NCBI GenBank assembly: GCA_017467275.1
Contig: JAFTSN010000017.1
Span: 1-56,897, forward strand
DNA: 56,897 nucleotides
Source: Clostridia bacterium
GTDB lineage: Bacteria > Bacillota > Clostridia > Christensenellales > Borkfalkiaceae
Direction: 5' to 3'
Positions 312 to 37,300 of the stretch are shown here, in pieces. A model generated the notes under the pieces. The model ran no database searches, was not told where the DNA came from, and saw nothing but the letters and a program-made list of their open reading frames with translations. The translations under genes were made by a program, and so were the position numbers. The first letter of the stretch is position 1; each line of letters begins with the position of its first letter.

Positions 312-379
312 GTAACATTTGTATTATATACTATTCAAATGGAAAAAGCAACTGTTTTTGCCCCTATTTATTTAAAAAA

Positions 380-409
380 ACGGAGCAATTTCTTTTGAAA
401 CTGCTCCGT
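380..409 (-). terminator. Terminator of the fumarate reductase operon
   Basis: Arms ACGGAGCA and TGCTCCGT (380-387/402-409) with an inner TTTC/GAAA extension form a long stem. On the minus strand this is followed by seven T residues. It lies 10 bases beyond the stop codon of the AspT-type transporter gene. Confidence 0.85.
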
Positions 410-418
410 CCTTTTCTT

Positions 419-1669
419 TTATGCGCCTATGAGAATCATTAAATTCGAGGCAATCACGATCAGCACCAAAGCGACGGGATAAGTTGCCGCATAAGCCGAA
501 GCAACGTCGTCGGTTCCCGCCACGGAAATAAGCGAGCCGAGCGCGGGAGTACTCGTCATACCGCCTGTGATCGAGCCCAGATTATTGAAGATCGAAAGCT
601 TGAACACATACTTTGCAAGCACGAATCCGACAATCATAGGAACGGTCGTAAAGATCACGCCGTAAAGGAAATAGAGCGGCTTAAAATTGTCGATAAAGCT
701 GATACCACCGGGAAGTCCCGCGCCGATCAGGAACATGACAAGCCCGAATTCTCGGAAGAAGTTAAGCGTGGATTTCGGGACGGTTAGATCGATTTTGCCC
801 ACGTGCCCGAAATGCCCGATTATAAGCCCTGCAATCAGTGTGCCTCCGCTCGTTCCAAGACTGAAAATCCCGATTTTGATCGAACCCAAAAGTATGCCGA
901 GCATGACTGTGAGCGCAAACGGAAAGAACCCAAATTCCCCGATCTGAAAACGTTTTTTCTCGCTTTCATTGACCGCAACAGCGCTTGCTGCAACAAAGCT
1001 TTCCCGCTCTTTAGCAATATCCACCTTCAAAAGCTTGGGTATAATTTGCACGAACAGCACAACGCCGAGCACGCCGTAGAGATAGCCGATCGCATAGCCC
1101 GCCGTGACCTTTTCAAGCGCAACGCCCGTCGCGGCGTCCTGCGCAGCGGAAAGCCCGGGCGTGGAAGTGAGCGCGCCCGTTAAGAGCCCCGTGCACATAG
1201 CAATATCCGTGCCCGTGATAACACAAACGAGAATTGCGAGCAAAACGCCCGTCAAAATGACAATCGCCCCCATTGCGAGATAGGAAAGCATGCTCTTATT
1301 AAACGAACGGAAAAATTTCGGTCCTGCAATCAAGCCCACCGCCGTCACGAACATACCTGTGCCGAGCTTGGAAACAAAGCTAAAAACCGACTGCACCGAC
1401 TTATTCCAGAGGGTGACTGTCTTTCCACCGATCGTAAACTCCCAAACGCATTGTTTAACCGTCTCGCCGTTTGCATTGACCGATTCCACCATCTCGCCGC
1501 ATTGAGAGAAAATGATGCCGACGGCAAGCGCAATCAACAGCACGCCCGCCGTGCCCAAAGAAATTCCTTTAATTTTAATCGCCCCGACCAGATAGCCGAA
1601 CACGACGATTGCAAAAATGATAAACAGGGGCGAAAATATAGACCCGAGCAAAGTACCCAAATACAGCAT
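419..1669 (-). CDS. AspT/YidE-YbjL family carboxylate transporter
   Basis: This is a 416-residue, very hydrophobic protein with two homologous halves. The N-terminal half carries GAIKIKGISLGTAGVLL and the C-terminal half, near residue 260, carries GSIKIGIFSLGTSGGTL; this repeat marks the AspT/YidE/YbjL duplication family (TC 2.A.81). It lacks the central TrkA_C/RCK_C regulatory domains of YidE-type members, so it is the short form. Known family members exchange aspartate/alanine, and SucE of Corynebacterium exports succinate. It is the last gene of the operon, 20 bases after the fumarate reductase flavoprotein, with an AGGAGG-like site and ATG. A role in exporting succinate or exchanging it for a dicarboxylate is inferred from that context. 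Confidence 0.85.
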   Translation of the reverse strand: MLYLGTLLGSIFSPLFIIFAIVVFGYLVGAIKIKGISLGTAGVLLIALAVGIIFSQCGEMVESVNANGETVKQCVWEFTIGGKTVTLWNKSVQSVFSFVSKLGTGMFVTAVGLIAGPKFFRSFNKSMLSYLAMGAIVILTGVLLAILVCVITGTDIAMCTGLLTGALTSTPGLSAAQDAATGVALEKVTAGYAIGYLYGVLGVVLFVQIIPKLLKVDIAKERESFVAASAVAVNESEKKRFQIGEFGFFPFALTVMLGILLGSIKIGIFSLGTSGGTLIAGLIIGHFGHVGKIDLTVPKSTLNFFREFGLVMFLIGAGLPGGISFIDNFKPLYFLYGVIFTTVPMIVGFVLAKYVFKLSIFNNLGSITGGMTSTPALGSLISVAGTDDVASAYAATYPVALVLIVIASNLMILIGA

Positions 1670-1689
1670 AAATCCATTCCTCCGCGAAC

Positions 1690-3294
1690 TTAATTCGCCT
1701 TTCTCTTGTAATCGGGAAGAAGTTTGGGAGACGCTTCGCCCGAAGCCGCGCCCGCGGTTTTGAGCTCTTGTTCAAAATCCTCGACGTGCTGCAACGTCAG
1801 CGCTTTAAGCTGAACGCTCTTGCTTTTTTCGCCCGCCTCTTTTCCTGCATTTCTGCCAAACACAATGATATCCAGCAGAGAATTACCCATCAGACGGTTG
1901 GTGCCGTGAATGCCGCCCACAGCTTCGCCCGCGACGTAAAGATTCTCTACGCAGGTCATGCCGTTTGCGGAAATATCCAGCCCGCCGTTCTGATAATGCA
2001 GCGTGGGATAGACCAAAATAGGCTCCTTACGAATATCAATGCCGTATTTTCCAAACATACGAAGCATTGCGGGAATCCGTTTTTCAATCGTACCCTCGCC
2101 GTTTACCATTTCGATGAGCGGGGTGTCGAGCCATACGCCCTCCCCGTCCGTCGTGGTGATTCCGCCGCCGTTTTGCTTACATTCACGAATGATCGAGGAA
2201 GCCGTCACGTCGCGCGTTTCCAAGGGGTTGACGAACGCAATGCCGTCCTTATTGACAAGCTGTGCGCCAAGCGAACGCACCTTTTCCGTGACGAGCGCGC
2301 CGTAGATCTGCGTGGGTGCCGCTGCGCCCGTCGGATGATACTGCAAGGTCTCGGGGTACAAAAGCTTTGCCCCCGCGCGGTAACCGAGCACAAGCCCGTC
2401 TGCCGTCGCGCCGTAGTGATTGGAGGTCGGGAAGCCCTGATAGTGCAATCTGCCCGCACCGCCCGTTGCAATCACAACCGTCTTTGCCCGCGCAACGAGT
2501 ATTTCTTTCGTCTCCATATTCATGAGCACCGCACCCGCGATCTTGCCGTCCGTATCCTTGATCAGCTCGATCGCAGACGTGAAGTCCACCACCGTGATCC
2601 CGCGGTTCAACACCTCGTCGCGAAGGGTACGCATAATCTCTGAGCCCGAATAATCGCGGCAGGCGTGCATTCTCTTTCTAGACGTTCCGCCGCCGTGCGT
2701 CGTTACCATTGTGCCGTCCGCTTCCTTATCAAACATGACGCCGAGATTATTCAGCCAAAGAATTGCCTCGGGCGCCTCGTTCACAAGCTTATATAAAAGC
2801 TCGGGCTTATTCTTAAAATGCCCGCCGCCAAGTGCGTCGAGATAATGGATCGCAGGGCTGTCGTTGGGTTTATCCGCCGCCTGAATACCGCCCTCCGCCA
2901 TTGCCGTGTTCGCGTCGCCCAAGCGGAGCTTGGTCACGATCATAACGTTCGCGCCGCTATTATCCGCTTCAATCGCCGCCGCCGCACCCGCGCCGCCGCC
3001 GCCGATCACGAGCACGTCCACGTCGTAGTCGGGTGAAGAAAGATCGATGGAAAGATCAAGGACGCGCGAACGACCCTGTAAAAGTGCGGCGAGCTCATGG
3101 AGCACCTTGCCCCCTTTGTTTTTTCCGACCTTGAGCTCCTCGTAAGCCGTCGAAATATAGTCGGGGTGGAAAGAAGCGAGAACCTCCTCTTTCTGGTCCG
3201 CGCTCATACGGGGGATCGCCGCCCCAAAACGGGAAGCGCGGGTCTCCTCCACCTTTTTCATGGATATGAGTTGTTCTTCTGTATACTGATACAT
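1690..3294 (-). CDS. frdA: Fumarate reductase flavoprotein subunit, soluble type
   Basis: This 534-residue protein belongs to the fumarate reductase/succinate dehydrogenase flavoprotein family. A Rossmann FAD motif GGGGAG lies at about residues 98-103, followed by AEGGIQA near 133, the substrate loop YHPTG, TEKVR with the proton-donating Arg, HYQNGG, and GTNRLMGNSLLD with the second substrate Arg. The catalytic residues of fumarate reduction are therefore present. The residue matching the His that binds FAD covalently in E. coli FrdA is Asn129 (ANTAMAEGG), so the flavin should be non-covalent, as in L-aspartate oxidase. About 90 residues precede the FAD domain, an N-terminal extension not found in FrdA. 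The start ATG has AAGGAG upstream, and the gene lies 10 bases after the Fe-S subunit gene. L-aspartate oxidase is an alternative, less likely given the neighbours. Confidence 0.88.
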   Translation of the reverse strand: MYQYTEEQLISMKKVEETRASRFGAAIPRMSADQKEEVLASFHPDYISTAYEELKVGKNKGGKVLHELAALLQGRSRVLDLSIDLSSPDYDVDVLVIGGGGAGAAAAIEADNSGANVMIVTKLRLGDANTAMAEGGIQAADKPNDSPAIHYLDALGGGHFKNKPELLYKLVNEAPEAILWLNNLGVMFDKEADGTMVTTHGGGTSRKRMHACRDYSGSEIMRTLRDEVLNRGITVVDFTSAIELIKDTDGKIAGAVLMNMETKEILVARAKTVVIATGGAGRLHYQGFPTSNHYGATADGLVLGYRAGAKLLYPETLQYHPTGAAAPTQIYGALVTEKVRSLGAQLVNKDGIAFVNPLETRDVTASSIIRECKQNGGGITTTDGEGVWLDTPLIEMVNGEGTIEKRIPAMLRMFGKYGIDIRKEPILVYPTLHYQNGGLDISANGMTCVENLYVAGEAVGGIHGTNRLMGNSLLDIIVFGRNAGKEAGEKSKSVQLKALTLQHVEDFEQELKTAGAASGEASPKLLPDYKRKAN

Positions 3295-3304
3295 ACGCTT
3301 CTCC

Positions 3305-3979
3305 TTACTTCTCGATTTCTCTATGATTATAGAGATTTTTCTGCTCCTCGAGGGGAGTATTCATAATCGCTTCGAGAGCGGCTTTACAGTCGCCCGAATC
3401 AATCTCTGCGACGCGGTTTATGAGGTGCTCGCTCTTCGGGGCGAGATATTTACCCGTGAGCCGACGCGCAAGCTCTGCCACCTGCGGATGGGAAATCCCC
3501 GCAGGGCAACGGGCAGAACACACGCCGCACATTACGCAATCAAAGCTCTCCTCGGCGCATTTTTCGTATTCGCCGCGTTGAGCATAGGCAATATACTGCA
3601 TGACGTTTAAGCCCTGCGTACAGCTCTTTGTGCATGCGTTACAGCCGATACAGGCGTAAATTTCGGGATAAAGCTGCATCATGATTTGCTGGGTGGGCTT
3701 GATCGTTTCGATATCGTACACCTTTTTTACAAGCGGAAAGAAAGGCAAGGTTGCCACGTACATACCCTCCTCCACCTGTTGCTGGCAGGCAAGGCAGGTC
3801 TTGAGCTCCTGCTGCCCGTGAATACGGTAGATCGTCGCACAGGCGCCGCAGAAGCCGTTTCTGCAACCGCAGCCGCGCACGAGCTCGTAGCCCGCATATT
3901 CCATAGCTTTCATGATCGTCAGGCTTTCGGGCACTGCGTATTTTTTTCCGAAGAGATAAATATTTACCGTCTTTTCCAT
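3305..3979 (-). CDS. Fumarate reductase iron-sulfur subunit (TfrB N-half-like)
   Basis: This 224-residue protein has a plant-type [2Fe-2S] domain (Cys39, 44, 47 and 62, in CGCRNGFCGAC...TC) and two C-terminal CxxCxxCxxxC [4Fe-4S] sites at 110-120 and 148-158. FrdB/SdhB of quinone-linked enzymes has one [3Fe-4S] centre facing the quinone; here both sites are complete [4Fe-4S] motifs. This matches the N-terminal half of TfrB from methanogen thiol:fumarate reductase. The ATG at 3979 is preferred because AAGGA precedes it by seven bases; an in-frame TTG at 3997 has no such site. It should carry electrons from the Hdr module to the flavoprotein encoded next. No membrane anchor gene follows. Confidence 0.85.
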   Translation of the reverse strand: MEKTVNIYLFGKKYAVPESLTIMKAMEYAGYELVRGCGCRNGFCGACATIYRIHGQQELKTCLACQQQVEEGMYVATLPFFPLVKKVYDIETIKPTQQIMMQLYPEIYACIGCNACTKSCTQGLNVMQYIAYAQRGEYEKCAEESFDCVMCGVCSARCPAGISHPQVAELARRLTGKYLAPKSEHLINRVAEIDSGDCKAALEAIMNTPLEEQKNLYNHREIEK

Positions 3980-3999
3980 AATTTTATCCTTATTCAATC

Positions 4000-4827
4000 T
4001 TAGTATTCGTCGGGCAATTCATCCAGCTCGTCCATGCGGAACACAGGTCCGTCCTTACAGACGAATTTATCGCCGACGTTACACCTGCCGCACTTACCCA
4101 CGCCGCACTTCATGCGAAGCTCAAGCGTCGTGTAGACACGGGATTTTTCAAAGCCGAGCTCCAAGAGTCCTTGGAGGGTGAATTTGATCATGACGGGCGG
4201 ACCGCACAGCACCGCGGTCATGGATGGATCCACGCCGATTTCCTTAACGTAAGCAGGCACGAAACCGACGTTGCCCTCCCAGCCCTCTTGGGCTCGGTCG
4301 ATCGTCAGATACACCTCGGTGTTTACCTCTTTCATCCACTCGTTTTTGATCTCGTCGATATCCACAAGATCGTCCTTGCTCCTTGCACCGTAGACGATCA
4401 CGATTTTCCCGTAGTTCGCACGGTAGTGTCGAACATAGTTGATTACGCTGCGCAAGGGCGCAAGCCCGATACCTCCCGCGATAAATAATAAGTCCTTGCC
4501 CTTAAACTCCTCCTCGACAGGGAAATTTCTGCCGTAAGGTCCGCGAATGGCGATCTGTTGCCCCACCTCCATGGAGTGCAACACGTCCGTCACACAGCCG
4601 CATTTTTTGATGGAAAACTCCATATATTCACGGTTGGTGGGAGAAGACGTTATGGAAAACATCGCCTCGCCGACGCCCGGCACGGAGAGCATGGCGCATT
4701 GTCCGGGGAGATGCTCAAACGGCTTTTTGCCGTCCGTTCCCACAACACGGAAAGTCTTGACGTCGTGAGTATCCTTGCGGATATCGGTAATCACACCGAT
4801 CTTTGGAATGAGTGCGTCGAAATTCAT
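4000..4827 (-). CDS. flxA: FlxA: FAD/NAD(P)-binding oxidoreductase subunit
   Basis: This 275-residue protein of the ferredoxin reductase/PyrK/AsrB type has an N-terminal FAD-binding barrel (FSITSSP near residue 55), a nucleotide-binding domain with IAGGIGLAPLRS near 115, and a C-terminal Cys cluster KCGVGKCGRCNVG. In Desulfovibrio, FlxA is the NADH-oxidising subunit of the FlxABCD-HdrABC bifurcating complex. The start ATG overlaps the flxB stop (ATGA). Its place next to flxB, flxC, flxD and hdrABC supports that assignment. It is the likely entry point for NADH electrons. On its own it could be mistaken for sulfite reductase subunit B, but no siroheme subunit is present. Confidence 0.85.
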   Translation of the reverse strand: MNFDALIPKIGVITDIRKDTHDVKTFRVVGTDGKKPFEHLPGQCAMLSVPGVGEAMFSITSSPTNREYMEFSIKKCGCVTDVLHSMEVGQQIAIRGPYGRNFPVEEEFKGKDLLFIAGGIGLAPLRSVINYVRHYRANYGKIVIVYGARSKDDLVDIDEIKNEWMKEVNTEVYLTIDRAQEGWEGNVGFVPAYVKEIGVDPSMTAVLCGPPVMIKFTLQGLLELGFEKSRVYTTLELRMKCGVGKCGRCNVGDKFVCKDGPVFRMDELDELPDEY

Positions 4828-5852
4828 GATTTCTCCCCTCCCAGCGTTTTAATGACCTTCACGATATTGAGGTTTTGCGGGCATTTATTCACACACCTGC
4901 CACACCCCACACAGGAATACAGCCCGCCGTTTTGTGCGGGATAATACACGAGCTTGTGCATGAAGCGCTGACGGTATCTCTGCATTTGGGTCGTGCGGCT
5001 GTTGCCGTGTGCCATGAGCGTGAAATCCGAATACATGCAAGAGTCCCAGCAACGGTATCGGATCACACCGCTATTCGTCTTAAAATCGCGAATGTCGAAG
5101 CATTGACAGGTCGGGCAGACGAACGTGCACGCACCGCAGCCGAGGCAAGCCTCGGAAAGCTCCGCCCATCTCGGATCATTGAACAATTCGTTAAGATTTT
5201 CCTCTTTAAAGCGGGATAAATCAAGCGCGGCAAGAGGAAGCCTTTTAAGAATCTCTTTCGTTTGAGACCTTTGCGCCTCCACCGCCTCTTCCCCGCATTT
5301 TTCCAAGAGAGAAGCGAGCTTTTCCGTCAAAGCCTCGCCCTTTTGGTTATTGGCTCTCCAATAGAGATATTCGCCATCCAACCACGTGGTGACGTCCCCC
5401 TCGGGCGCGGTCGGATCAATCCCGAACGCCGTGCAAAAACAGCTTTCTTCAGGACGGGAACACGCCAAAGAAACGACGGTGATCGCATTTCTACGGCTCT
5501 GATAAAAGGTGTCCACGGGCTCGGCAAGAAACACTCTGTCCAAAACCTCGAACGCCTTGACGTCGCACGCCTTAACGCCGAACACGACGAACGGGCGTTT
5601 ATCCTCCGTGCGGATATCGACAACCTCAACCGATTTTCCCTCGGTCTTGAATTTCATCATGTTTTCTGTCTGCGGGAAGAATGCGTTTTTGGGCGATTTC
5701 ACCGTTTTGAGCGTTTCGAGAGAAACCTCCTTGCCCTCGCCCCAAACGGCAAAATTGACTTCGTCTGCCCGTCTAATTGGAATGAACAGCCCCGACGTCT
5801 TAGCAATGGCGGCATATAATGCGTTTAGATCGGTCTTTTTTATCCTATACAT
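4824..5852 (-). CDS. flxB: FlxB: 4Fe-4S protein, AsrA-like
   Basis: This 342-residue iron-sulfur protein of the AsrA/hydrogenase beta type has an N-terminal domain of about 210 residues (VVFGVKACDVKAFEVLD) and two C-terminal CxxCxxCxxxC ferredoxin sites, CLGCGACTFVCP and CVGCGRCVNKCP. In Flx-Hdr complexes FlxB is thought to pass electrons between the FlxA flavin and the Hdr core. Its ATG overlaps the flxC stop by one base (TAATG) and its stop overlaps the flxA start, so translation is likely coupled along this part of the operon. Confidence 0.83.
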   Translation of the reverse strand: MYRIKKTDLNALYAAIAKTSGLFIPIRRADEVNFAVWGEGKEVSLETLKTVKSPKNAFFPQTENMMKFKTEGKSVEVVDIRTEDKRPFVVFGVKACDVKAFEVLDRVFLAEPVDTFYQSRRNAITVVSLACSRPEESCFCTAFGIDPTAPEGDVTTWLDGEYLYWRANNQKGEALTEKLASLLEKCGEEAVEAQRSQTKEILKRLPLAALDLSRFKEENLNELFNDPRWAELSEACLGCGACTFVCPTCQCFDIRDFKTNSGVIRYRCWDSCMYSDFTLMAHGNSRTTQMQRYRQRFMHKLVYYPAQNGGLYSCVGCGRCVNKCPQNLNIVKVIKTLGGEKS

Positions 5853-6826
5853 TATTTCCCCTCCTTAAGAACGTCTTTAGGCTCAAGGTCGCTTTCTCTA
5901 TACTCGGTGAGCGGCGTTTTTCCTTCCGCGCTTTCGCCCGCTTGAAATTCGCCGTAGGTTTCGTCGATATCCTTAATAAATTTCCTATTCAAAAGATGCA
6001 GAGGAATCCCTTGAGGACAAACCCTTGAGCATTCGCCGCAGTCCGTGCAACGACCCGCCACGTGATAGGCGCGGATAATATGGAAAAGCTGTTCCTCGAA
6101 TTTATCGTCGTTTGCCTTTGCCGCAACGCCCGACTGCGGATTATCGAACACGCACTTAATACAAGAGCATGCGGGACAAACGTTTCTGCACGCATTGCAA
6201 CGGATACACTTGGACAGCTGCTCACGCCAGAATTTGAAGCGTTCCTCCGCCGTCATTTGCTCCAGCGCCTCAACCTCCGCAAAGCGGTTTACGTCGCGAA
6301 CGGGGCGTTCGTGAAGCACGATCTCCTCGTCCTTGACCTGATGCGTTTTATTGCAGGTCGCACACTTTGCAAGCACGATTTCCGTCTTGGACAAAACCGC
6401 CTCGCCATAGAGCGTTTGGACCTTGACTTGCTCGCCGTCCACCTCCACGCCCGTAACCGCGGAAAGTCCCTTTGCCTTGATTTTTCCGATATCCAGCTTC
6501 GCCATACATTCCACGGCAATCACGTGAATCTTTTCACGGTTGATTCGGTGCTCCTTGACAAGCTGATTAAAACTATACGTGTCACAGGGCTTCAAAAACA
6601 CTGCCGTTTTGCCCTCTTTTTTGCTCTCGGCAATGAGATATTTGGAGAGATTGGCGCCGCAGAAATAGTCGTAGACGAAATCTTTAAGCTCGTCCACGCT
6701 CTCAAAAGACGCGGGCTCGGGGTCGTGGCAAAACGCTCCCTTTCTCCAACCGATCACGCGCGCAACCTCTCCACTTTCGAGAAGCACTTTTGCGCGTTCC
6801 AGCATTTTACTTTCCACCTCTTTCAT
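5852..6826 (-). CDS. flxC: FlxC: 4Fe-4S ferredoxin-domain subunit
   Basis: This 324-residue protein has an AKCATCNK motif near residue 155 and two ferredoxin-type Cys sites, CIRCNACRNVCP with a trailing CSCIKC, and CTDCGECSRVCP. The N-terminal 150 residues lack Cys clusters and resemble the F420/FrhB-like part of such subunits (FCGANLSKYLI, FLKPCDT). It lies between flxD (one base away) and flxB (one base overlap), in the order known for Flx-Hdr complexes. A GGAGGG site precedes the ATG. It probably forms part of the wire between the NADH site and HdrA. Confidence 0.8.
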   Translation of the reverse strand: MKEVESKMLERAKVLLESGEVARVIGWRKGAFCHDPEPASFESVDELKDFVYDYFCGANLSKYLIAESKKEGKTAVFLKPCDTYSFNQLVKEHRINREKIHVIAVECMAKLDIGKIKAKGLSAVTGVEVDGEQVKVQTLYGEAVLSKTEIVLAKCATCNKTHQVKDEEIVLHERPVRDVNRFAEVEALEQMTAEERFKFWREQLSKCIRCNACRNVCPACSCIKCVFDNPQSGVAAKANDDKFEEQLFHIIRAYHVAGRCTDCGECSRVCPQGIPLHLLNRKFIKDIDETYGEFQAGESAEGKTPLTEYRESDLEPKDVLKEGK

Positions 6827-6827
6827 T

Positions 6828-7280
6828 TTACTCGCCCTCCTTTACTCTCAAATCGGAAAGCTTTTTGTTCTCGCCGAGCGCGGTGACCTTTGCCACGAAA
6901 TCGTTCATCACGGCAGAAAATTTCGCGCCCTCTGCGGCAGAGACCCATTCGAGGCGGGTCCTATCCCGCTCGATACCAAGATAATCGAGGAAGCTAAAGA
7001 GCATAGCCATTCTTCTTCTCGTGTAGTAATTTCCCGTCACGTAATGACAGTCGCCGGGGTGACAGCCACAAATAATCACGCCGTCCGCACCGCGCTGAAA
7101 CGCTTTGAGCACGAACATGGGATTGACTCGACAAGAGCAAGGCACGCGAATGATCTTCACGTTCGCGGGATAACTCAAGCGGCTGGAGCCCGCAAGGTCG
7201 GCGCCCGCATACGAACACCAATTACAGCAAAACGCCACGATATTGGGCACAAATCCCTCTTTCGTTGTTATCTCTTGCAT
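6828..7280 (-). CDS. flxD: FlxD: MvhD-like [2Fe-2S] electron transfer subunit
   Basis: This 150-residue MvhD/FlxD-family protein starts at the ATG at 7280, which has GGAGGTGG upstream and lies inside the last codons of hdrA (13-base overlap). A longer upstream reading frame exists but runs out of phase through hdrA and lacks a ribosome site. Conserved Cys are C18, C19, C22 (FCCNWC), C48, C50 (PCSC) and C71, C73, C78 (CGCHPGDC), the [2Fe-2S] ligands of the family. MvhD-type subunits dock directly on HdrA and feed electrons to the bifurcating flavin. Placement directly after hdrA fits this. Confidence 0.88.
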   Translation of the reverse strand: MQEITTKEGFVPNIVAFCCNWCSYAGADLAGSSRLSYPANVKIIRVPCSCRVNPMFVLKAFQRGADGVIICGCHPGDCHYVTGNYYTRRRMAMLFSFLDYLGIERDRTRLEWVSAAEGAKFSAVMNDFVAKVTALGENKKLSDLRVKEGE

Positions 7281-9256
7281 ATCTCTTCCACCTCCGACAT
7301 AATCTGCTTGGAGCTGAAGCCCTTCAGATCCATCGCGCCCGACGGACAAGTGACCGTGCATGCGCCGCAACCCTGACATACCGCGGGGTTGACGGAAGCA
7401 ATGCGGCGAAGCTCTGTTTTACCGTCTACGCGGAGCTCTTTCTCGACATAGGTGATCGCCCCATACGGACAAACGGAAGCGCATTGGCTGCAACCGTTAC
7501 ACATGGTCTCGTTTGCGCTTGCCACGCAAGGGTTCGTCTTAAGCTTGTCTTTGACGAGCAGTCCGATCACTTTCGCCGCACAAGCGGAAGCCTGTGAAAC
7601 CGTTTCGGGGATATCCTTAGGGCCTTGACAAACGCCCGCAAGATACACGCCCGCCGTGGGACTCTCCACGGGACGGAGCTTGGCGTGGGATTCCGTTAAA
7701 AAGTTGTTCGTGTCGATACTCGCCGTCAAAAGCGTGGCAATCTTTCTCACGGAAGGCTCGGGCTCGATCGCCGCCGCCAATACGACAAGATCAGACTCAA
7801 TCAACACCTGCTCGTTGTCAATGAGGTTAGAGCCCTGCACCATGAGCTTACCGTTTTCGTTATACACCTTGCCGACCATGCCCTTGATATAGTCCACGCC
7901 GTATTGCTCCACCGCACGGCGGAAAAATTCGTCGTAGTTCTTCCCTGGAGTACGCACGTCGATATAGAACACGTGCACCTCGGTGTCGGGATATTTCTCG
8001 CGAATGAGCATGGCGTGCTTCGCCGTGTACATACAGCAAATCTTCGAGCAGTACGGCTTACCGCAACCCGACGTATCGCGCGAGCCGACGCACTGAATAA
8101 ACGTGATTACCTTGGGGTGCTCTCCGTCGGACGGACGAAGCAGTACGCCGTTTGTTGGACCCGCCGCGTTCATAATGCGCTCGAGCTCGAGAGAGGTGAT
8201 CACGTCTTGATTTTCCGAATAGCCGAACTCGTTGAAGGCGTTAAGCTCGATCGGCTTAAAGCCCGTTGCAACGACAATCGCGCCGTAGCCCCGTTCGATA
8301 TATTCATCCTTTTGCGTATAGTCGATCGCGCCTGCGCCGCAGACCTTTTGACAAAGACCGCATTTGCCCGTCTTGAGCTTAATGCACTGCTCGGGATCGA
8401 TCACCGCGACGTTGGGAATCGCCTGCGCGAACGGGATATAGATCGCGGGGCGCTTATTCAGCTTCATATTGAACTCGTCCAAGCCCTTTTTTGAGGGGCA
8501 TTTTTCCATACAGAGCTTACAACCCGTACATTTCTTTTCGTCGACGAATCTTGCCTTCCTTTTAATTTTGACGGAAAAGTTTCCGACAAAGCCCTTGACC
8601 TCCTCCACCTCGGAATAGGAAAGGATATCAATCTTTTCGTTCTGTGCGCAATCCACCATTTTCGGTGTTAAGATACAAGCTGAGCAGTCGAGCGTGGGGA
8701 ACGTCTTGTCGATCTGCGCCATGCGTCCGCCGATCGTTGCGTTTTTTTCCACAATATCCACTTCAAAGCCCGCTTCCGCTATATCGAGCGCCGCCTGTAT
8801 ACCTGCAATACCGCCGCCGATCACAAGCGCGCGCTTGATAACGGGGCTTTCCCCTGCCGATAAGGGTGCGTTTAAATTGACCTTTGCGATTGCCGTGCGG
8901 ACGAGAATAATCGCCTTTTCCGTCGCCTCCTCTCTGTCCTTATGAATCCAAGAGCAATGCTCGCGGATATTGGCAATTTCAACCATATAGGAATTGAGTC
9001 CCGCCGCCTCCGCCGTCTTGCGGAAGGTCGCCTCGTGCATGCGCGGCGAACAGGAGCCCACGACGATTCCCGTCAAAGAGTGCTCCTTAATTGCATTTTT
9101 TATAAGCTGTTGACCGTTTTCGGAGCACATATACTGATAAGTCGCGGAATACACGACGCCTTGGTCTTTTTTAACCGCGTCTGCCACCCGCTCCACGTCA
9201 ACCGTTGCCGCGATGTTACTACCGCACCAACAAATAAATACACCGATTCTCTGCAT
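7268..9256 (-). CDS. hdrA: HdrA: flavin-based electron-bifurcating subunit
   Basis: This 662-residue HdrA has an N-terminal domain with FICWCGSN and GSCSPRMHE motifs, a FAD Rossmann motif VIGGGIAGIQAA near residue 150, the typical CSACILTPKM segment, and ferredoxin inserts near residue 240 (CTGCKLCMEKCP) and 310 (CIKLKTGKCGLCQKVC). Two C-terminal [4Fe-4S] sites, MCNGCSQCASVCP and VCQGCGACTVTCP, provide the ferredoxin outlet. In known complexes this FAD splits electron pairs between ferredoxin and HdrB. It lies between hdrC (15-base gap) and flxD (overlap). The domain set is that of a single-length HdrA, without a fused MvhD. Confidence 0.95.
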   Translation of the reverse strand: MQRIGVFICWCGSNIAATVDVERVADAVKKDQGVVYSATYQYMCSENGQQLIKNAIKEHSLTGIVVGSCSPRMHEATFRKTAEAAGLNSYMVEIANIREHCSWIHKDREEATEKAIILVRTAIAKVNLNAPLSAGESPVIKRALVIGGGIAGIQAALDIAEAGFEVDIVEKNATIGGRMAQIDKTFPTLDCSACILTPKMVDCAQNEKIDILSYSEVEEVKGFVGNFSVKIKRKARFVDEKKCTGCKLCMEKCPSKKGLDEFNMKLNKRPAIYIPFAQAIPNVAVIDPEQCIKLKTGKCGLCQKVCGAGAIDYTQKDEYIERGYGAIVVATGFKPIELNAFNEFGYSENQDVITSLELERIMNAAGPTNGVLLRPSDGEHPKVITFIQCVGSRDTSGCGKPYCSKICCMYTAKHAMLIREKYPDTEVHVFYIDVRTPGKNYDEFFRRAVEQYGVDYIKGMVGKVYNENGKLMVQGSNLIDNEQVLIESDLVVLAAAIEPEPSVRKIATLLTASIDTNNFLTESHAKLRPVESPTAGVYLAGVCQGPKDIPETVSQASACAAKVIGLLVKDKLKTNPCVASANETMCNGCSQCASVCPYGAITYVEKELRVDGKTELRRIASVNPAVCQGCGACTVTCPSGAMDLKGFSSKQIMSEVEEICKR

Positions 9257-9271
9257 TTCACGCCTCTTTCG

Positions 9272-9658
9272 TTATTTGTTATACTTCCTGTATGCGCTCA
9301 TTAAAAGCTGTTGGGGGATCAATTCGTCCACCATGGGCGGGATATCTTCCGCCTTCATTCCGTTTGCCCCCTGCGCTCTTATAACAGTGTCTCTCACCGC
9401 CTCGATAACCGCGGCGGGCGCGACGGCGCGCGGGCAACGTTCCACGCAAGCCATGCAGGAAAGACAGCTCCAGATCGCCTCGCTTTTCAAAAGCTCCTCA
9501 ATGCGTCCCTGTGCAAGCAGGGAGACGAATTGGTGGGGCTTGATATCCATTTCGTGAAAGGCGGGACATCTACCCGAGCATTTACCGCATTTCATGCATT
9601 TGCGGACGTCCGTCCCGCTCATTCTTTTAACGTTTTCACACTGCTCTTTAACCGTCAT
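9272..9658 (-). CDS. hdrC: HdrC: ferredoxin-like subunit
   Basis: This 128-residue protein has two CxxCxxCxxxC sites at residues 21-31 (CMKCGKCSGRC) and 65-75 (CLSCMACVERC), which coordinate two [4Fe-4S] clusters. This is the HdrC pattern that bridges HdrA and HdrB. Its ATG overlaps the hdrB stop (ATGA at 9655-9658). Length is slightly short against HdrC proteins of about 150-190 residues, but both cluster sites are intact. Confidence 0.93.
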   Translation of the reverse strand: MTVKEQCENVKRMSGTDVRKCMKCGKCSGRCPAFHEMDIKPHQFVSLLAQGRIEELLKSEAIWSCLSCMACVERCPRAVAPAAVIEAVRDTVIRAQGANGMKAEDIPPMVDELIPQQLLMSAYRKYNK

Positions 9659-10434
9659 GATTTCACCCCCAAGGCTTCGGCAAGGAGCTCTGTGAAATAT
9701 TTGACGGGCAAAATCCCACTGCCCTTTTCGTTCAAATTATAAAGACAGAGCGGACATGCCGTGATTACTTCCTCCGCGCCCTTTTCCTTTGCCGAGCGCA
9801 AGATTCTTTCGCTCTGCTTTTTAGGCAAGTCGGGGTTCTTTAAGCCGACGTAAGCCCCGCAACATTCGTTACGGAAAGGATAGATTACGGGCGTGCCGCC
9901 AAGCGCGCGGATAAAATCCTCGATAATCGTGGGATTTTCGGGGTTGTCGAACGCCATAACGCCGCTCGGGCGAAGCAAAAGACAACCGTAATACGCGCCC
10001 ACCTTTCTATTCAGCGGCTTCACGACTTTTTGTGCAATATTATCGAAACCGACGACGGTTTTGAGCATTTCGAGATAATGCAAGACTTCCGTTTCGCCGC
10101 GATAAGACTCTTCAAGCTGCAAATAGTTGTTTGCACGCGAGCAGATTTCCCCGTCAGAACGCATATCTTCGTTCGTGCGCTTGATCACGTTGTGACAGGC
10201 AGAGCAAAGCGTTAATAGTCTGCCGCCGTTATGCTTGGCGTAATCGAGCGCGCGGACGGCGGAGAGCTTGGTCGCAATCTCGTCGCGCGCCATGGGATAC
10301 ACCGCGCCGCAACACTGCCAATTCTCGATTTCCTCCATTTCCACCCCGAGCGCTAAAGCCGCCAGCCGCGCCGTTTGATCGAGCGCTTGCGATTTCGTTT
10401 TCAGCGTGCAACCGGGATAATAGCAAATTTTCAT
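9655..10434 (-). CDS. hdrB: HdrB: CCG-domain catalytic subunit
   Basis: This 259-residue protein has two full CCG motifs: C9, C41-C42, C77, C80 and C151, C191-C192, C227, C230. In methanogen HdrB these bind two non-cubane [4Fe-4S] clusters that reduce a disulfide. In thiol:fumarate reductase the C-terminal half of TfrB is HdrB-like, so here the HdrB and the Fe-S subunit at 3305-3979 together supply the parts of a TfrB. No DsrC or heterodisulfide pathway gene is seen in this window, so the acceptor is open. A GAGGAAAAAT site precedes the ATG. Confidence 0.92.
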   Translation of the reverse strand: MKICYYPGCTLKTKSQALDQTARLAALALGVEMEEIENWQCCGAVYPMARDEIATKLSAVRALDYAKHNGGRLLTLCSACHNVIKRTNEDMRSDGEICSRANNYLQLEESYRGETEVLHYLEMLKTVVGFDNIAQKVVKPLNRKVGAYYGCLLLRPSGVMAFDNPENPTIIEDFIRALGGTPVIYPFRNECCGAYVGLKNPDLPKKQSERILRSAKEKGAEEVITACPLCLYNLNEKGSGILPVKYFTELLAEALGVKS

Positions 10435-10452
10435 ATTTTTCCTCTACCTTGA

Positions 10453-11832
10453 TCAGTCTTTGTGCGGATACGCCATTTCTTCGGGTCGGAACACCTCGTC
10501 GAATTTCTCCGCCGAAAGGAATCCGAGCGCCACGCAAGCTTCCTTTAAGGAAATATTTTCCTTATATGCCTTTTTCGCCGTCTTAGCCGCGTTTTCATAG
10601 CCGATATAGGGGTTGAGCGCGGTCACGAGCATGAGCGAATTATAGAGGTTGTGGTGCATCTTTTCGCGGTTTGCCTTGATTCCTGCCGCACAATTCTTCT
10701 CAAAGGACGTGATCCCGTCCGCAAGAAGCCGCGCCGATTGCAAGAAATTATAGATGATGACGGGCATAAACACGTTCAGTTCAAAATTGCCCTGCGAAGC
10801 ACCCATGCCTACGGCGACGTCGTTTGCGATCACTTGCACGGCAACCATAGTTAAAGACTCGCACTGCGTGGGATTGACCTTGCCCGGCATGATCGACGAG
10901 CCCGGCTCATTCTCGGGAATGAAGATTTCCCCAAGTCCGTCGCGGGGACCAGAAGCCAGCCAGCGAACGTCGTTGGCGATCTTCATTAGATTTGCCGCCA
11001 ATGCTTTCATGGCGCCGTGTGCAAACACTAACTCGTCCTTTGCCGTGAGCGCATGATATTTATTTGCTGCGGTTTTAAACTGCTTGCCTGTGAGCGTGCT
11101 CACTTCCTCTGCAACCGCCTCGGCAAAGCCCTTGGGCGCATTCAGCCCCGTGCCGACCGCCGTGCCGCCGAGCGCTAATTCCTTTAAGCCGTTCAGAGAG
11201 AGCGCAAGCTGGGCTTTCGTCGTTTCGAGCATACTTCTCCAACCGCTGATCTCTTGGGAAAATGCGATGGGGACGGCGTCCTGCAAATGCGTTCTGCCGC
11301 TCTTGACGATCCCCTCGTTTTCCGCTTCTAATCTTTGGAACGTCGCAATGAGTTGATCCATAGCGGGGAAGAGTTTATCTTCTATCGCGAGCACAGCGGC
11401 TATGTGCATCGCCGTGGGAAACGTGTCGTTAGAGCTTTGGCTCTTATTGATGTCGTCGTTGGGGTGGAGCAGCTTTTTGCCTGCCAGCTCGTTGCCTCGA
11501 CCCGCAATCACCTCGTTCGCGTTCATATTGGACTGGGTGCCGCTACCCGTCTGCCAGACGACGAGCGGGAAATGGTCGTTGAGCGAGCCCGAAATAACCT
11601 CGTCGCACGCCGTGCAAATGAAATTTTTCTTTTCTTCGGGCAGAATCCCGAGACGGAAATTAGCGAGAGCCGCCGCCTTTTTTAAAATACCGAACGCGTG
11701 CGTGATTTCGCGCGGCATAATCTCCGTGCCGACGCGGAAATTTTCAAGACTTCTCTGCGTCTGCGCCGCCCAATATTTGTCTAAGGGCACTTTCATCTCG
11801 CCCATGGTATCCTTTTCAATACGGTATTCCAT
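10453..11832 (-). CDS. fumC: Fumarate hydratase class II
   Basis: This 459-residue protein is in the class II fumarase/aspartase superfamily. The signature GSSIMPGKVNPTQCE (residues about 315-329) with the catalytic serine loop is exact, and TGSGTQSNMNANEV near residue 95 and SGRTHLQDA near 180 are typical of fumarase rather than aspartase. It interconverts malate and fumarate in the cytosol without an iron-sulfur cluster. It is second in the operon, 20 bases after the dehydrogenase and 18 before hdrB, so it would supply fumarate to the reductase encoded downstream. Confidence 0.94.
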   Translation of the reverse strand: MEYRIEKDTMGEMKVPLDKYWAAQTQRSLENFRVGTEIMPREITHAFGILKKAAALANFRLGILPEEKKNFICTACDEVISGSLNDHFPLVVWQTGSGTQSNMNANEVIAGRGNELAGKKLLHPNDDINKSQSSNDTFPTAMHIAAVLAIEDKLFPAMDQLIATFQRLEAENEGIVKSGRTHLQDAVPIAFSQEISGWRSMLETTKAQLALSLNGLKELALGGTAVGTGLNAPKGFAEAVAEEVSTLTGKQFKTAANKYHALTAKDELVFAHGAMKALAANLMKIANDVRWLASGPRDGLGEIFIPENEPGSSIMPGKVNPTQCESLTMVAVQVIANDVAVGMGASQGNFELNVFMPVIIYNFLQSARLLADGITSFEKNCAAGIKANREKMHHNLYNSLMLVTALNPYIGYENAAKTAKKAYKENISLKEACVALGFLSAEKFDEVFRPEEMAYPHKD

Positions 11833-11852
11833 AATTTTTCACCTTTTCTCTT

Positions 11853-12803
11853 TTAAAATTTTACCTTTTCGATAACGCCCTTTAAAACCGCTGCGCTATT
11901 ATGGAGCTTGGTCAATTCGTCCTCTGAAAGCCGAGGCGTGAGCGTGGTTAATATGCCGCTGTCACTCAACACGCAGAGGGTGCTCAAGCAGACGTCCGAT
12001 ATTCCGTATTCCCCATCCAAAAGCGTGGAGACGGTCATAACCGTGTCCGCACCCGAATACAGCCCCTTTATGATATAGCAGACGGATGCCGCAATACCGT
12101 AATAGGTTGCGCCCTTGCCCGCAATGATCTTGCCGCCCGATTTACGAACGTATTCCTCCACGTCCTCCCGCTTATACGGCGTGAGGGGCAAATCGGTGTT
12201 ATTCGTGAGCGCCGCACCGTATTCGGTTATGGGAATTCCCGTGATATCTGCCATCGACCACGCGACAAAGGAGGTGTCCCCGTGCTCGCCCAAAACGTAG
12301 GCATGGACCTGTTTTTGGTTGATGGAATACAGCTCGGAAAGACGGGTTCTTAAACGGATCGTGTCAAGAATGGTGCCCGAGCCTATAATCTGCCGCTTGG
12401 GAAGCCCCGTCACTTTGCCGAACACGTAGGTGAGCACATCGACCGGATTGGAGACGATAATATAAATGGCGTTCGGCGCGTATTTGACGAGCTTGGGTGC
12501 AAGCTCGACGATTACGTCAACGTTGGTCTGCGCGAGATCGATACGGGATTGTCCTGGCTGTCTCGCCACGCCGCAAGTGATCACGACGATATCCGAATCA
12601 ACGGCGTCCTTATAGTCCCCCACGTATACCTTGGTCGGGGATAAGAAAGGCGTCGCCTGCTTGATATCAAGAACCTCCCCCAAAACCTTTTCTTGATTTA
12701 CGTCGATCAATACGATCTCTGAAACGGGGCTGTTTACGACCAGCGTATATGCGATCGTCGCGCCTACCGACCCTGCGCCTATGATTGTGACCTTGTTGTT
12801 CAT
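11853..12803 (-). CDS. NAD-dependent lactate/malate dehydrogenase
   Basis: This 316-residue protein of the LDH/MDH superfamily has NAD motif GAGSVG at 9-14, Arg87, Asn119, Asp147-Arg150 and the catalytic GEHGDT with His174. The fold-level motifs (GSGTILDT, GEHGDT) are LDH-like, and automated pipelines would call it L-lactate dehydrogenase. However, the specificity position (residue 102 of Bacillus LDH, Gln in LDH, Arg in MDH) is Arg81 here (GVARQPGQSR). With fumarase directly downstream, malate dehydrogenase (oxaloacetate to malate) is an attractive alternative. A GGAGAGAAGAGAAG leader precedes the ATG. First gene of the operon. Confidence 0.88.
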   Translation of the reverse strand: MNNKVTIIGAGSVGATIAYTLVVNSPVSEIVLIDVNQEKVLGEVLDIKQATPFLSPTKVYVGDYKDAVDSDIVVITCGVARQPGQSRIDLAQTNVDVIVELAPKLVKYAPNAIYIIVSNPVDVLTYVFGKVTGLPKRQIIGSGTILDTIRLRTRLSELYSINQKQVHAYVLGEHGDTSFVAWSMADITGIPITEYGAALTNNTDLPLTPYKREDVEEYVRKSGGKIIAGKGATYYGIAASVCYIIKGLYSGADTVMTVSTLLDGEYGISDVCLSTLCVLSDSGILTTLTPRLSEDELTKLHNSAAVLKGVIEKVKF

Positions 12804-12883: not shown

Positions 12884-12912
12884 ATTATATCATATTTCGC
12901 CCGTTTACACAA
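12884..12912 (-). promoter_or_regulatory. Promoter of the fumarate reductase operon
   Basis: On the minus strand TTGTGT (12907-12912) is followed after 17 bases by a perfect TATAAT (12884-12889). It lies about 80 bases upstream of the first gene start at 12803. Confidence 0.8.
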
Positions 12913-12989: not shown

Positions 12990-13036
12990 AAAAACGCCCC
13001 GATTTGGCAGAGCGCTGCCAAACGGAACGTTTTTTA
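12990..13036 (-). terminator. Terminator after the DUF308-like gene
   Basis: Arms at about 12990-13010 and 13015-13036 (AAAAACG..TTTGGCAG / CTGCCAAA..CGTTTTT) form a stem of about 20 bp with mismatches. T runs flank both sides, so it may act in both directions. It lies 13 bases past the stop codon at 13049. Confidence 0.82.
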
Positions 13037-34321: not shown

Positions 34322-37300
34322 TTATTCTCCTTTGCCCTCGCTTTCGTCGCTAACTTCGCTCGTCTCGGCGGTTTCCGTCGTTTCGACCGCCACGGTTTCC
34401 TTTTCACCCGCCGCTTTCTTTTTGCGGAGAGTCAAGAATACAACCACGCCTGCCGCCGCACCGACCAGAACGACCGCGCCGATAACGACGCCGACGATCC
34501 AGCCCTTTCCGCCGTCCTTTTCAGTCGGCTCGGGATCGGTGGGATCGGAGGGATCCGTGGGATTGCCAGGCTCGACGGGATCCGTCGGCTCCGCCGCTCT
34601 CAAAGCCGCGATTTTGGAAACCGCAGCGCTGAGCTTCGCGGTCTCGTCGCTCGTGAAGAAGGACTTTTGTCCCGATTTAAGCATCGAGTAAGCAATCTCC
34701 ATGCGATCGACTTGCGTGCCGTCCTCAAGCTTCAAAGCATCAACAGACAACGACGCCAACCAATCCTTGATCGCCTGCGTGCCCTCTTCAATCAGCTCCT
34801 CGCTATAAGCGGACTTATTGAAAGAGAGTGAGTAGACGTAACCCTCAAAGCCCGTCGCATTAACGGGGATGAGCATATCCGCAAGAATATAACCTGCAGG
34901 ATAGGAGAACATTGCGTAAAGATCGGTAACGGAAGCGATGCTATCGCCCATATCGACGTACTCTGCCTCGAGAAGAGGTGCCTCCAAGCCCTTGAAAATA
35001 TACTTGGGATTGTATTTGCGCTCATAAGGATCCGCTTCGATCGCATCGTTATTATCCGTCAGAATATTCAAGCCCATATAGTAGAAGCCAAATGAACCGA
35101 TCGTCTTGACGGACGCGGGAATCTCCACCGCGTGGATATCCATACAGTACGCCATCGCGTAAGGTGCGATACGCACGGTACCCTCGAGGATCTTATAGGG
35201 CTCAAGTCCCTCGTAGGTTTCGGCAACCTTATCCATAACGATCGCGTTGGGAACGGATACGAGCTCGTAGCCGCCGTTCGCAAGCTTCTTATAAAGCGCC
35301 TTATTGGAAACGAAATAGGTTTCATTGTTCTCGTCGACCGTGATCGTCTCGAGCAACATACAGCCCGCAAAGGCAGGTGCACCGAACATCTTGAGCGAAG
35401 CGGGAAGGTGTACTTCCGTGATCTTCGCGTTGAAGAACGCCGCACTGCCGATTCCGACCAGCTTATCGCCGAACGTGATCTTTGTGATGCTGCCCGTCCC
35501 TATCTCGCCTGTGGACGAAATCGGAGTCATGAACGCCGAGCTATAAATATACTCGATGTCGGTCAAAACAAGCTCGGTCACGTTGGGGCAACCGTAGAAC
35601 GCAGCGTCGGCAATCACAATCGCAGATTCAAGCGTGTGATCCTTGTCGACGATAACGTTCGTCATAGCAAAGCTCTCTGCGCCGAAATATTGAACGGCGT
35701 CGAGATTGATGTTTTTCACTGCGCTGGCATAGAACGCGGATTGCTCGATATACCAAACATTCTCACCGAGCACGACGTCGGTCAAAGCGGTACAAGCGAG
35801 GAACGCGCCGATGCCGATATACTCAACGCCCGGAAGTACGATGGTTTTCATGACCGAATTGCCGCAGAACGCATACGCGCCGATATATTTCACGGATTCG
35901 GGAATCACGATGCTCTTCATTGCCGACTGAGGTGCAACGTCGCCCTCGTTATCGCCAGGAATGAAGAATGCAAAGTTACCGATTTCAAGCGCACCGTCGC
36001 CAATCGTCACGTTTTTAAGCGCGGGCGTTGCGGCGAACGCATAATCTCCCATGCTCTGCACACCAGCGGAAATATAGAGCGTTTCCATTGCGGTGCAGGC
36101 ATAGAATGCGCGCGCCCCGATATAAAGCACGCTGTCGGGAAGCAAGACTTCCTCTAAAAGCGTACAGCCGAGGAATGCGCCCGTGCCGAGATAATAGAGA
36201 TCGGAATTTGCTTCAAAGGTCAGCTCGGTCAGGTTTTCGCAGGCAGCGAAGGTATATTCGCCGATGAGCTGCACGCCCTTATTGATCTCAAGGCTTTCAA
36301 GCCCCGTCATCGCAAACGCATAGGTGTCGATGAGAGAGACGGATTCAGGCAAATCGATCGCGGTGAGCGCGCTACAGCCATAGAACATACCGAACGGAAT
36401 CGTCTTAAGATCGCAAAGGAACACGATTTCTTTAAGATTTTCGCAATTCGCAAAAGCATAGGCTTCGATTGCCGTCACGGTGGACGGAATCACCACTTTC
36501 GTGATTCCCGTTCCGCGGAACGCCGCCCTGCCAATCGTCGTGACGCCCTCGGGAATCACAAGCTCCTTATTATTGAGAGACACGTTGTTTGCATATGCTT
36601 CCTTGCCGATCTCCGTGATTGCTTCGGGAACGGTAAATACGCCGTCATCCGAATCAAGTACGTAGGTCGTGGGAACAATGATGATTTTTGCACCGAGCTT
36701 ATCGGTAAGCATGACGTGCGCACCGCCGTCGTTGGTGACAGTGGCATAATTTGCACTGGTCTGATTGCCGAGAATGGTCGCCTTGGCAAAGGACGAGCAG
36801 CCCGTGAACACTTCCACGCCGACTTCCTGAATGTTCGATTCGGGATGTACGTAAAGCGTGATAAGAGACTGACAGTTCATGAACGCACCCGAGCCAATGG
36901 AAGTCAAGCCCTCGGGAATCGTGAATTCCGTGAAGGCACTGCAGCCCTCGAACGCATTATCGCCGATAGCGCCGCAGCTTCCGTTAAAGGTTACCGTCTC
37001 GAGCGAGACAGCGCCGTAGAAGGCAGCGTTTCCGATATAAGCAAGATCGTTATGGAATACAATCTCTTCAAGCTTGATTGCGTTGCGGAATGCGCCTGCT
37101 CTGACGTATTCGCCATAGAAATCAACCTTTTCAATACCCGTGCCGCTGAACATATCCGCGCCGAGAACGGTGTTTGCGGAAAGCGTCACTTCTTTCATAC
37201 CCTTGCCCTGATACTCGGTATTCTCAAGCGCCTTGCTGTTCTTGAAGACTTCGGCACCGCTATAACGGAGCTTGGTGAGATCCGCTTTCGTGAGTGCATA

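Follow-up and report, generated by a model that had tools for sequence, protein, structure and literature searches.

A conserved succinate operon of a Clostridia bacterium likely to couple Hdr-Flx electron bifurcation to soluble fumarate reduction

The window studied here, the whole 56,897-nucleotide stretch of contig JAFTSN010000017.1 from a Clostridia bacterium, carries a real, conserved and coherent succinate operon. Twelve tightly packed genes lie on the minus strand from position 12803 to 419, in the 5' to 3' order malate dehydrogenase (probable), fumarase, hdrB, hdrC, hdrA, flxD, flxC, flxB, flxA, frdB, frdA and AspT-family transporter. From this gene content and the residues conserved in its products, we consider it rather probable that the electrons of NADH are split at HdrA between ferredoxin and fumarate, the latter being reached via HdrC, HdrB, FrdB and FrdA, and that the operon encodes a reductive C4 pathway that starts from oxaloacetate and ends in succinate export. 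A first-pass annotation of the sequence had named all of these genes except the transporter gene at 419-1669, which was missing from its list; family searches confirmed that the named genes are present, on a single strand and in the order given, and the overlaps or gaps of about 20 bases or less that it described were measured as -13 to +20 bases between neighbours, with several overlaps. The gene names below rest on Pfam and NCBIfam family searches of the window proteins.

11853..12803, minus strand: LDH/MDH-family (lactate/malate) dehydrogenase, probably malate dehydrogenase (Pfam Ldh_1_N/Ldh_1_C)
10453..11832, minus strand: class II fumarase fumC (TIGR00979, 721.1 bits, cut-off 664.75)
9655..10434, minus strand: HdrB with two CCG motifs, of the non-cubane [4Fe-4S] type (PF02754)
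9272..9658, minus strand: HdrC with two [4Fe-4S] motifs (Pfam search)
7268..9256, minus strand: HdrA, presumed bifurcating flavin adenine dinucleotide (FAD) subunit with a C-terminal ferredoxin domain (match to 5odc_A, E 3.2e-203)
6828..7280, minus strand: FlxD, MvhD-like [2Fe-2S] linker (PF02662, E 1.6e-55)
5852..6826, minus strand: FlxC, Fe-S protein (PF13183)
4824..5852, minus strand: FlxB, Fe-S protein, sulfhydrogenase beta / AsrA-like (PF17179)
4000..4827, minus strand: FlxA, NAD(P)H-binding FAD protein, AsrB-like (PF00175, PF00970, PF10418)
3305..3979, minus strand: FrdB with a [2Fe-2S] and two CxxCxxCxxxC [4Fe-4S] motifs (Pfam, NCBIfam, Cys alignment)
1690..3294, minus strand: FrdA, fumarate reductase flavoprotein with an N-terminal extension of about 90 residues (PF00890 at residues 93-473)
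419..1669, minus strand: AspT/YidE-family transporter, presumed dicarboxylate (succinate) exporter (PF06826, E 3.7e-63)
374..415, minus strand: probable intrinsic terminator closing the operon (stem then T run, fold -25.3 kcal/mol, z -9.27)
12884..12912, minus strand: possible promoter TTGTGT-17-TATAAT, tentatively read by eye in the sequence

Encoded enzymes and proposed electron path

In the proposed scheme, malate dehydrogenase would convert oxaloacetate to malate and fumarase would convert malate to fumarate, which a cytosolic HdrABC-FlxABCD-FrdAB assembly would reduce. FlxA would oxidise NADH and pass the electrons via FlxB, FlxC and FlxD to the FAD of HdrA, where bifurcation would send one electron uphill to ferredoxin. 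The other would run downhill by way of HdrC, HdrB and FrdB, reaching the FAD of FrdA and finally fumarate, and the net reaction would be 2 NADH + fumarate + oxidised ferredoxin -> succinate + reduced ferredoxin. The AspT-type carrier, for which succinate or another dicarboxylate is the presumed substrate, would export the succinate, and the reduced ferredoxin would probably be re-oxidised by an NADH-dependent HydABC-type [FeFe] hydrogenase, releasing H2. Ferredoxin potentials range from -500 to -420 mV. With +33 mV for fumarate and -320 mV for NAD, as given in PMC5861303, our own arithmetic gives -68 kJ/mol for the downhill half and a cost of 19 to 35 for the uphill half, a net of -33 to -49 kJ per mol fumarate over that ferredoxin range, and the thermodynamics therefore allow bifurcation with fumarate.

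The product of the first gene passes the NCBIfam L-lactate dehydrogenase model TIGR01771 (329.6 bits against a cut-off of 303.55), although it carries Arg81 at the position of LDH Gln102, as do 45 of 46 relatives, the remaining one having a gap there. We take Gln at specificity position 102 to denote a lactate dehydrogenase and Arg a malate dehydrogenase, so that the gene probably encodes a malate dehydrogenase; of the earlier "lactate/malate dehydrogenase" the family stands and the lactate option is rejected.

All seven subunits of an HdrABC-FlxABCD complex are present with their Fe-S motifs. The nearest solved chains of HdrB are all HdrB (8rvv, 8rvu, 9sfi, 5odc, 7bkb), and it matches the C-terminal part of the NCBIfam TfrB model; the ten CCG-type Cys of its two motifs are kept in 83/83 relatives, and the eight motif Cys of HdrC in all covering rows (83/83 or 84/84). 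The 22 Cys of HdrA between positions 191 and 637 are likewise kept in 83/83, as is Lys413, for which we assume the role seen in the methanogen structure; in the N-terminal part, C9, C11, C44 and C69 are kept in all covering rows (78-80) and C101 in 77/80. FlxB matches NF040829 (E 2e-55) and TIGR02910 (E 5e-43), both under cut-off, and a Shine-Dalgarno-like sequence indicates that flxD probably starts at 7280. The HdrA genes of G692 (L212), G715, G536, G525 and G479 each contain one in-frame TGA, possibly read as selenocysteine at a cluster ligand; selenocysteine at such a position is known from methanogen HdrA.

The residue counts exclude rows interrupted by a stop and matches spanning less than 60% of the query, which leaves 117 of 120 loci for FrdB and 114 for FrdA. 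In FrdB, Cys 45, 50, 53 and 71 and the eight Cys of the two [4Fe-4S] motifs are kept in 117/117 and C43 in 110/117. The protein (224-230 aa) has no match to the CCG domain PF02754 and reaches only 33.3 of the 385 bits of the TfrB model; judged against what we take to be the classical [3Fe-4S] pattern, no such pattern was found in it, and an extra Cys, C157, is present in 117/117 relatives. Its start is probably ATG 3979, preferred to TTG 3997 because of a Shine-Dalgarno-like sequence; in most class-level relatives the alignment starts only at residue 4-7.

The FrdA active site, identified by alignment to solved Frd and succinate dehydrogenase (SDH), consists of His, Thr-Glu, Arg, His and Arg, presumably E. 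coli positions 232, 244-245, 287, 355 and 390, and is kept in 114/114 relatives, except that the Thr is found in 113/114, with one Ser. The position of the covalent-FAD His is Asn129 in the window and Asn in 114/114 relatives, from which a non-covalent FAD is predicted. An E. coli Frd without this His reportedly no longer oxidises succinate but still reduces fumarate, and the Asn thus suggests that FrdA is a one-way, fumarate-reducing enzyme. FrdA scores under the cut-off of the 25 NCBIfam models listed of the 52 that it matched, the best being TfrA (348.7 of 718 bits).

Three other identities were considered and ruled out. For NadB, the position of the NadB-type Glu, which we take to be E. 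coli E121, holds His in the window (relatives: His 110, Phe 3 and Lys 1 of 114), and the own genome encodes a separate NadB-like flavoprotein (L002, on C5) that is 30% identical to FrdA, shows REGG at that position by eye and is followed by what looks by eye like a nadC-like gene. A quinol-linked Frd/SDH is rejected since there is no covalent-FAD His, no [3Fe-4S] pattern, no Sdh_cyt over cut-off and no UbiA match in the genus. A methanogen-type Tfr with a fused CCG half is rejected because PF02754 is not matched by FrdB and the TfrA and TfrB scores are under cut-off.

As for the boundaries, the hairpin with its T run lies 3' of the transporter gene, which therefore probably belongs to the transcription unit. 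Upstream, about 245 bases separate the operon from the preceding gene, after which a terminator-like site lies at 12993-13016. That site comes from a consensus promoter/terminator scan that performed at chance level and had neither the 374..415 hairpin nor the 12884..12912 promoter among its matches; an Rfam search of the window returned only one tRNA and one 5S rRNA.

Conservation and cell context in the genus

The operon is widespread among close relatives. FrdB is present in 32 of the 37 genus genomes searched (in one as two partial pieces on two contigs), and the five without it are at most 73% complete. A strong FrdB match was found in 5/24 genomes of the rest of the order, and matches at 1e-30 or better in 54/391 genomes of a class sample and 39/398 of a phylum sample, the own genome included in both. 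Five nearly complete genomes from three other genera of the same family gave no FrdB at 1e-30, so that the distribution is patchy. A contig scan of named genomes yielded at least 449 candidate FrdB relatives (E up to 1e-3), the best 80 of which, with FrdB 74-93% identical and hence biased to near relatives, make up the named loci; many are gut metagenome-assembled genomes (MAGs) of Clostridia, and a few are labelled Spirochaetales, Treponema or Bacteroidaceae.

The first-pass annotation had proposed to search genomes for the same gene order, and this order proved to be conserved. In the named loci flxA adjoins frdB in 79/79, the remaining locus, L081, starting only at frdB, and each adjacent pair from hdrB through frdA is contiguous wherever both genes were found, for example hdrA-flxD in 70/70; flxC was matched in 75/80 and adjoins flxB in 75/75. 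Where at least 9.9 kb of upstream sequence is available (n=57), hdrB is present in 57/57, fumC in 54/57 and malate dehydrogenase in 41/57; the transporter is present in 50 of the 62 loci with at least 3.5 kb downstream. Across the named loci, fumarase adjoins hdrB in 57/58. This linkage is far more than chance. Using shorter loci (19 same-genus, 29 class-level and 29 phylum-level), we found flxA directly upstream of frdB in 18/18 readable same-genus loci, one more stopping at the contig end, and in 29/29 class-level loci. Three records labelled Treponema (L158), Spirochaetales (L117) and Bacteroidaceae (L160) hold much the same operon as far as their contigs reach, owing either to horizontal transfer or to wrong binning.

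The host genome is a 1.55 Mb draft, 79% complete. Among the matches listed, the named genomes whose FrdB is nearest to its own are Clostridia MAGs from the caecum of roe deer and water deer (up to 93%) and those of Candidatus Scatosoma (85-86%), for which reason we describe the host as apparently a gut Clostridia bacterium. The metabolic context was examined by family searches at E 0.001 in 38 same-genus genomes, the own included, all drafts (8/38 with completeness of 90% or more and contamination of 5% or less), and in 14 control genomes. UbiA, for quinone synthesis, was matched in 0/38 genus genomes (control 14/14), so succinate is probably made without quinone. Sdh_cyt was over cut-off in 0/38, with two weak matches (control 7/14; the FrdC/FrdD families were not searched). 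RnfC was over cut-off in 0/38 (control 4/14), with some match in 37/38, the weak matches of the own genome including FrdB, FlxC, HdrC and HdrA of the operon, and RnfD/NQR2 was found in 0/38 (control 4/14). [FeFe] hydrogenase is present in 35/38 genus genomes (control 1/14), and the own locus has NuoE-, NuoF- and group A6 HydA-like genes, with a match to the NADH-dependent group A6 of 846.6 bits (cut-off 765). Since the Rnf membrane subunit was not found and a hydrogenase is present, the ferredoxin electrons probably leave as H2 and not via Rnf. GTP-type phosphoenolpyruvate carboxykinase (PEPCK) was found in 35/38 genus genomes (control 2/14) and the ATP-type in 0/38 (control 5/14).

FrdBA outside the class and alternative explanations

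Beyond the class the linkage loosens. Setting the own genome aside, we retrieved wide loci for 33 of 38 phylum-level matches (G734, G533, G568, G623 and G647 being omitted) and for 7 of 53 class-level ones. Of the 33 outside the class, five have the full Hdr-Flx set linked to FrdBA, four with frdBA first and one hdrC-first; seven combine flxD and flxC with several HdrA-like matches, five of them also with hdrCB, and in L176, the sole locus examined of these seven, the HdrA-like matches fall in a single 1489-residue protein; five have hdrCB alone; and 16 have FrdBA without linked hdr genes in the stretch covered, although the contig extends less than 3 kb upstream of frdB in three of these (L163, L173, L190) and less than 4 kb downstream in two (L162, L186). 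Full Hdr-Flx is thus found in the orders hdrBCA-flxDCBA-frdBA, frdBA-hdrBCA-flxDCBA (five loci, with the class-level L194) and hdrCBA-flxDCBA-frdBA (one locus). On an FrdA tree of 54 rows, made by a quick method from a sample of named loci, full linkage requires four changes, and thus either arose more than once or was lost repeatedly; on this tree the label of L118 stands for flxA alone and that of L158 for hdrA to flxA, and an uninspected membrane label on L190 and L193 has no effect on the count.

HdrA was searched for in 25 outside-class FrdBA genomes (fully linked in 3, with hdrCB alone in 5, and with no linked hdr in the stretch covered in 17) and was matched at 1e-60 in 21; the four without a match, three of them from one genus, are all of the unlinked kind. 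For 14 of the 18 genomes having an HdrA match without a full linked set, we fetched the HdrA locus, and in 14/14 HdrA sits among Hdr-Flx genes without Frd, with all seven subunits in 12; L205 lacks flxA, its contig stopping just after flxB, and L208 lacks hdrB. The first-pass annotation held that Frd genes lying apart from hdr-flx in relatives, with no co-occurrence, would speak against its proposal, and the outcome is divided: they lie apart in the 16 wide loci, yet Hdr-Flx is present in all 14 genomes inspected, while four of the 25 searched have no HdrA match.

The claim that NADH drives cytosolic fumarate reduction with energy saved as reduced ferredoxin is overall partly supported: an NADH input module, the HdrA Fe-S motifs, a soluble and quinone-independent Frd and the conserved linkage are all present. 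With the linkage of Hdr-Flx in different gene orders, the intact FrdA site and the HdrA Cys and Lys413, these make the coupled mechanism likely on genomic grounds. Several observations weigh against it. At the phylum level flxA is upstream of frdB in only 1/29 short loci, FrdBA stands without linked hdr in the 16 wide loci, four genomes have no HdrA match, and, Hdr-Flx being widespread among anaerobes, its co-occurrence in trans is weak evidence. What a cell would gain from reduced ferredoxin is harder to see in a genus with no RnfD/NQR2 match, and 19/38 genus genomes hold an RnfC-like protein of 152-188 bits, under the cut-off of 245.95. In Endoriftia the cluster joining the reductive tricarboxylic acid (rTCA) cycle to Hdr-Flx is co-expressed with the exception of tfrAB, according to the consulted text of PMC11636981. 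No biochemical proof of coupled activity was found in the open-licence literature, most subscription papers lying outside the search.

The intact disulfide-type CCG motifs of HdrB (83/83) would also suit a thiol/disulfide acceptor, and they lead to the most serious of the other explanations, in which the genes are co-transcribed and the enzymes separate: Hdr-Flx would reduce ferredoxin and a disulfide (a thiol or a DsrC-like protein), and FrdAB would be fed by ferredoxin, flavodoxin or that thiol. The unlinked FrdBA loci, the HdrA-free genomes and the Hdr-Flx operons standing elsewhere without Frd all agree with it, but the linkage is unbroken in the class-level and named loci and recurs in different gene orders, and FrdB itself lacks a CCG domain, a part that HdrB could contribute; we regard this explanation as unlikely for this operon. 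Because FrdBA occurs without linked hdr and in genomes without HdrA, Hdr coupling is not obligatory for the family as a whole, and FrdBA can probably use other electron donors; a strong case for coupling exists only where a single operon contains the genes, as it does in the window.

Some of the 16 unlinked FrdBA loci adjoin genes for membrane FMN-binding or cytochrome (c or b561-type) proteins: a membrane FMN-binding/4Fe-4S protein in L169, a cytochrome b561-like Fe-S protein in L191 and cytochrome c proteins in L189 and, by eye, in L192. By their predicted products, these neighbours are a different electron input for the same reductase. In L166 (G814), from a genome without an HdrA match, a pyruvate carboxylase-like gene (by eye) adjoins frdBA; acetyl-CoA synthetase-like genes follow shortly after frdBA in L161 and L163, the latter also with a CoA-transferase-like gene (by eye). 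The stand-alone Hdr-Flx operons of the deep relatives L204 and L206 lie beside TtcA-like ATPase and larB/larC-like genes (by eye). As a tentative wider view, FrdBA may be a portable soluble reductase cassette that has docked repeatedly on Hdr-Flx, on Hdr variants and on membrane FMN/cytochrome modules, the docked form being the main succinate route of quinone-free, Rnf-free gut Clostridia and letting the cell form H2 from NADH by way of bifurcated ferredoxin and a hydrogenase of the HydABC type.

If the Flx-Hdr proteins conducted electrons without reducing ferredoxin, the complex would be a plain NADH:fumarate reductase. Electron transfer from NADH to fumarate is strongly exergonic without coupling and the genus has no match to the Rnf membrane subunit, both as this explanation would have it; it is nevertheless improbable, since the HdrA Fe-S motifs, C-terminal ferredoxin domain and Lys413 are kept in 83/83 and a [FeFe] hydrogenase outlet exists. 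That FrdA acts mainly on another unsaturated acid is very unlikely: its sub-threshold NCBIfam scores, TfrA included, leave room for this, but the fumarate-type active site is conserved and fumarase accompanies the operon in nearly all named loci with enough sequence. Operation in reverse, with reduced ferredoxin driving succinate oxidation, is hardly credible, since the Asn in place of the covalent-FAD His, with the behaviour of the E. coli mutant, the operon's malate dehydrogenase, fumarase and transporter and the GTP-PEPCK of the genus outweigh the succinyl-CoA ligase-like genes seen by eye beside frdA in the deep relatives L169 and L176, genes that would fit either the oxidation of succinate or its formation from succinyl-CoA.

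Elsewhere in the window, positions 34322-42361 encode a protein of 2679 residues that combines subtilase, PA and Fn3-like domains with BspA-type leucine-rich repeats; oligopeptide ABC transporter genes lie nearby.

Comparison with known systems

If the coupled mechanism is true, fumarate becomes another high-potential acceptor of flavin-based bifurcation, and quinone-free gut Clostridia conserve energy as reduced ferredoxin while forming succinate, which links succinate to H2. The gene set looks frequent (the 449 or more candidate FrdB relatives were collected at a lax threshold) and bears on models of electron flow in hindgut and rumen and on succinate engineering, and its linkage in several gene orders makes the family suited to asking how Hdr complexes swap terminal acceptors.

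The FlxABCD-HdrABC of Desulfovibrio, reportedly described by Ramos et al. in 2015 as having NADH as input and a disulfide as high-potential acceptor, has the same seven subunits; in the window a fumarate reductase follows them. The analogy with methanogen thiol:fumarate reductase drawn by the first-pass annotation is a loose one: TfrA is the best NCBIfam match of FrdA, yet under the curated cut-off, and TfrB has an HdrB-like CCG half that the FrdB of the window lacks. With quinol:fumarate reductase and SDH, FrdA shares the flavoprotein active site; unlike them, the window Frd has no covalent-FAD His, [3Fe-4S] pattern or anchor over cut-off, and the genus no UbiA match. In Blautia luti a viologen-dependent fumarate reductase was measured and frdAB named, the terms hdr and flx being absent from the accessible text (PMC12773636).

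The view that no described enzyme has exactly this make-up cannot be maintained. In the rTCA clusters of tubeworm symbionts and Thioflavicoccus, tfrAB stands with flxABCD-hdrABC, and direct electron delivery has been proposed (available portions of PMC6315080 and PMC11636981). By these descriptions, in which tfrAB is the authors' name, such clusters share with the window operon an Hdr-Flx set near a soluble fumarate reductase, and differ from it in serving carbon fixation and in having korABCD interspersed. The same kind of gene set and the same bifurcation idea were published for Pseudoclostridium thermosuccinogenes: PMC7282089 (2020) describes a 'succinate operon' that comprises fumarate hydratase, the Hdr-Flx complex for bifurcation, fumarate reductase and a transporter potentially for succinate. 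When CO2 is limiting, this operon rises about 4-fold, though the change is not significant for every subunit. The paper makes the same bifurcation coupling an assumption, citing a 2019 preprint by Koendjbiharie and van Kranenburg on the coupling.

The window operon thus joins an already proposed kind of bifurcating fumarate reductase, an idea already in print. Our analysis adds the malate dehydrogenase assignment, the inclusion of terminator and transporter in the unit, the signatures of a non-covalent FAD and of an Fe-S subunit without the [3Fe-4S] pattern, the lack of UbiA or RnfD matches in the genus, the spread, and the linkage in different gene orders. Judged by its published description, the P. 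thermosuccinogenes operon resembles that of the window in its fumarase, seven-gene Hdr-Flx set, two-gene Frd and putative succinate transporter; P. thermosuccinogenes differs in having Rnf, whereas RnfD/NQR2 was matched in none of the 38 genomes of the window's genus, and its operon, for which that description lists no malate dehydrogenase, differs from that of the window, where a malate dehydrogenase gene precedes fumarase.

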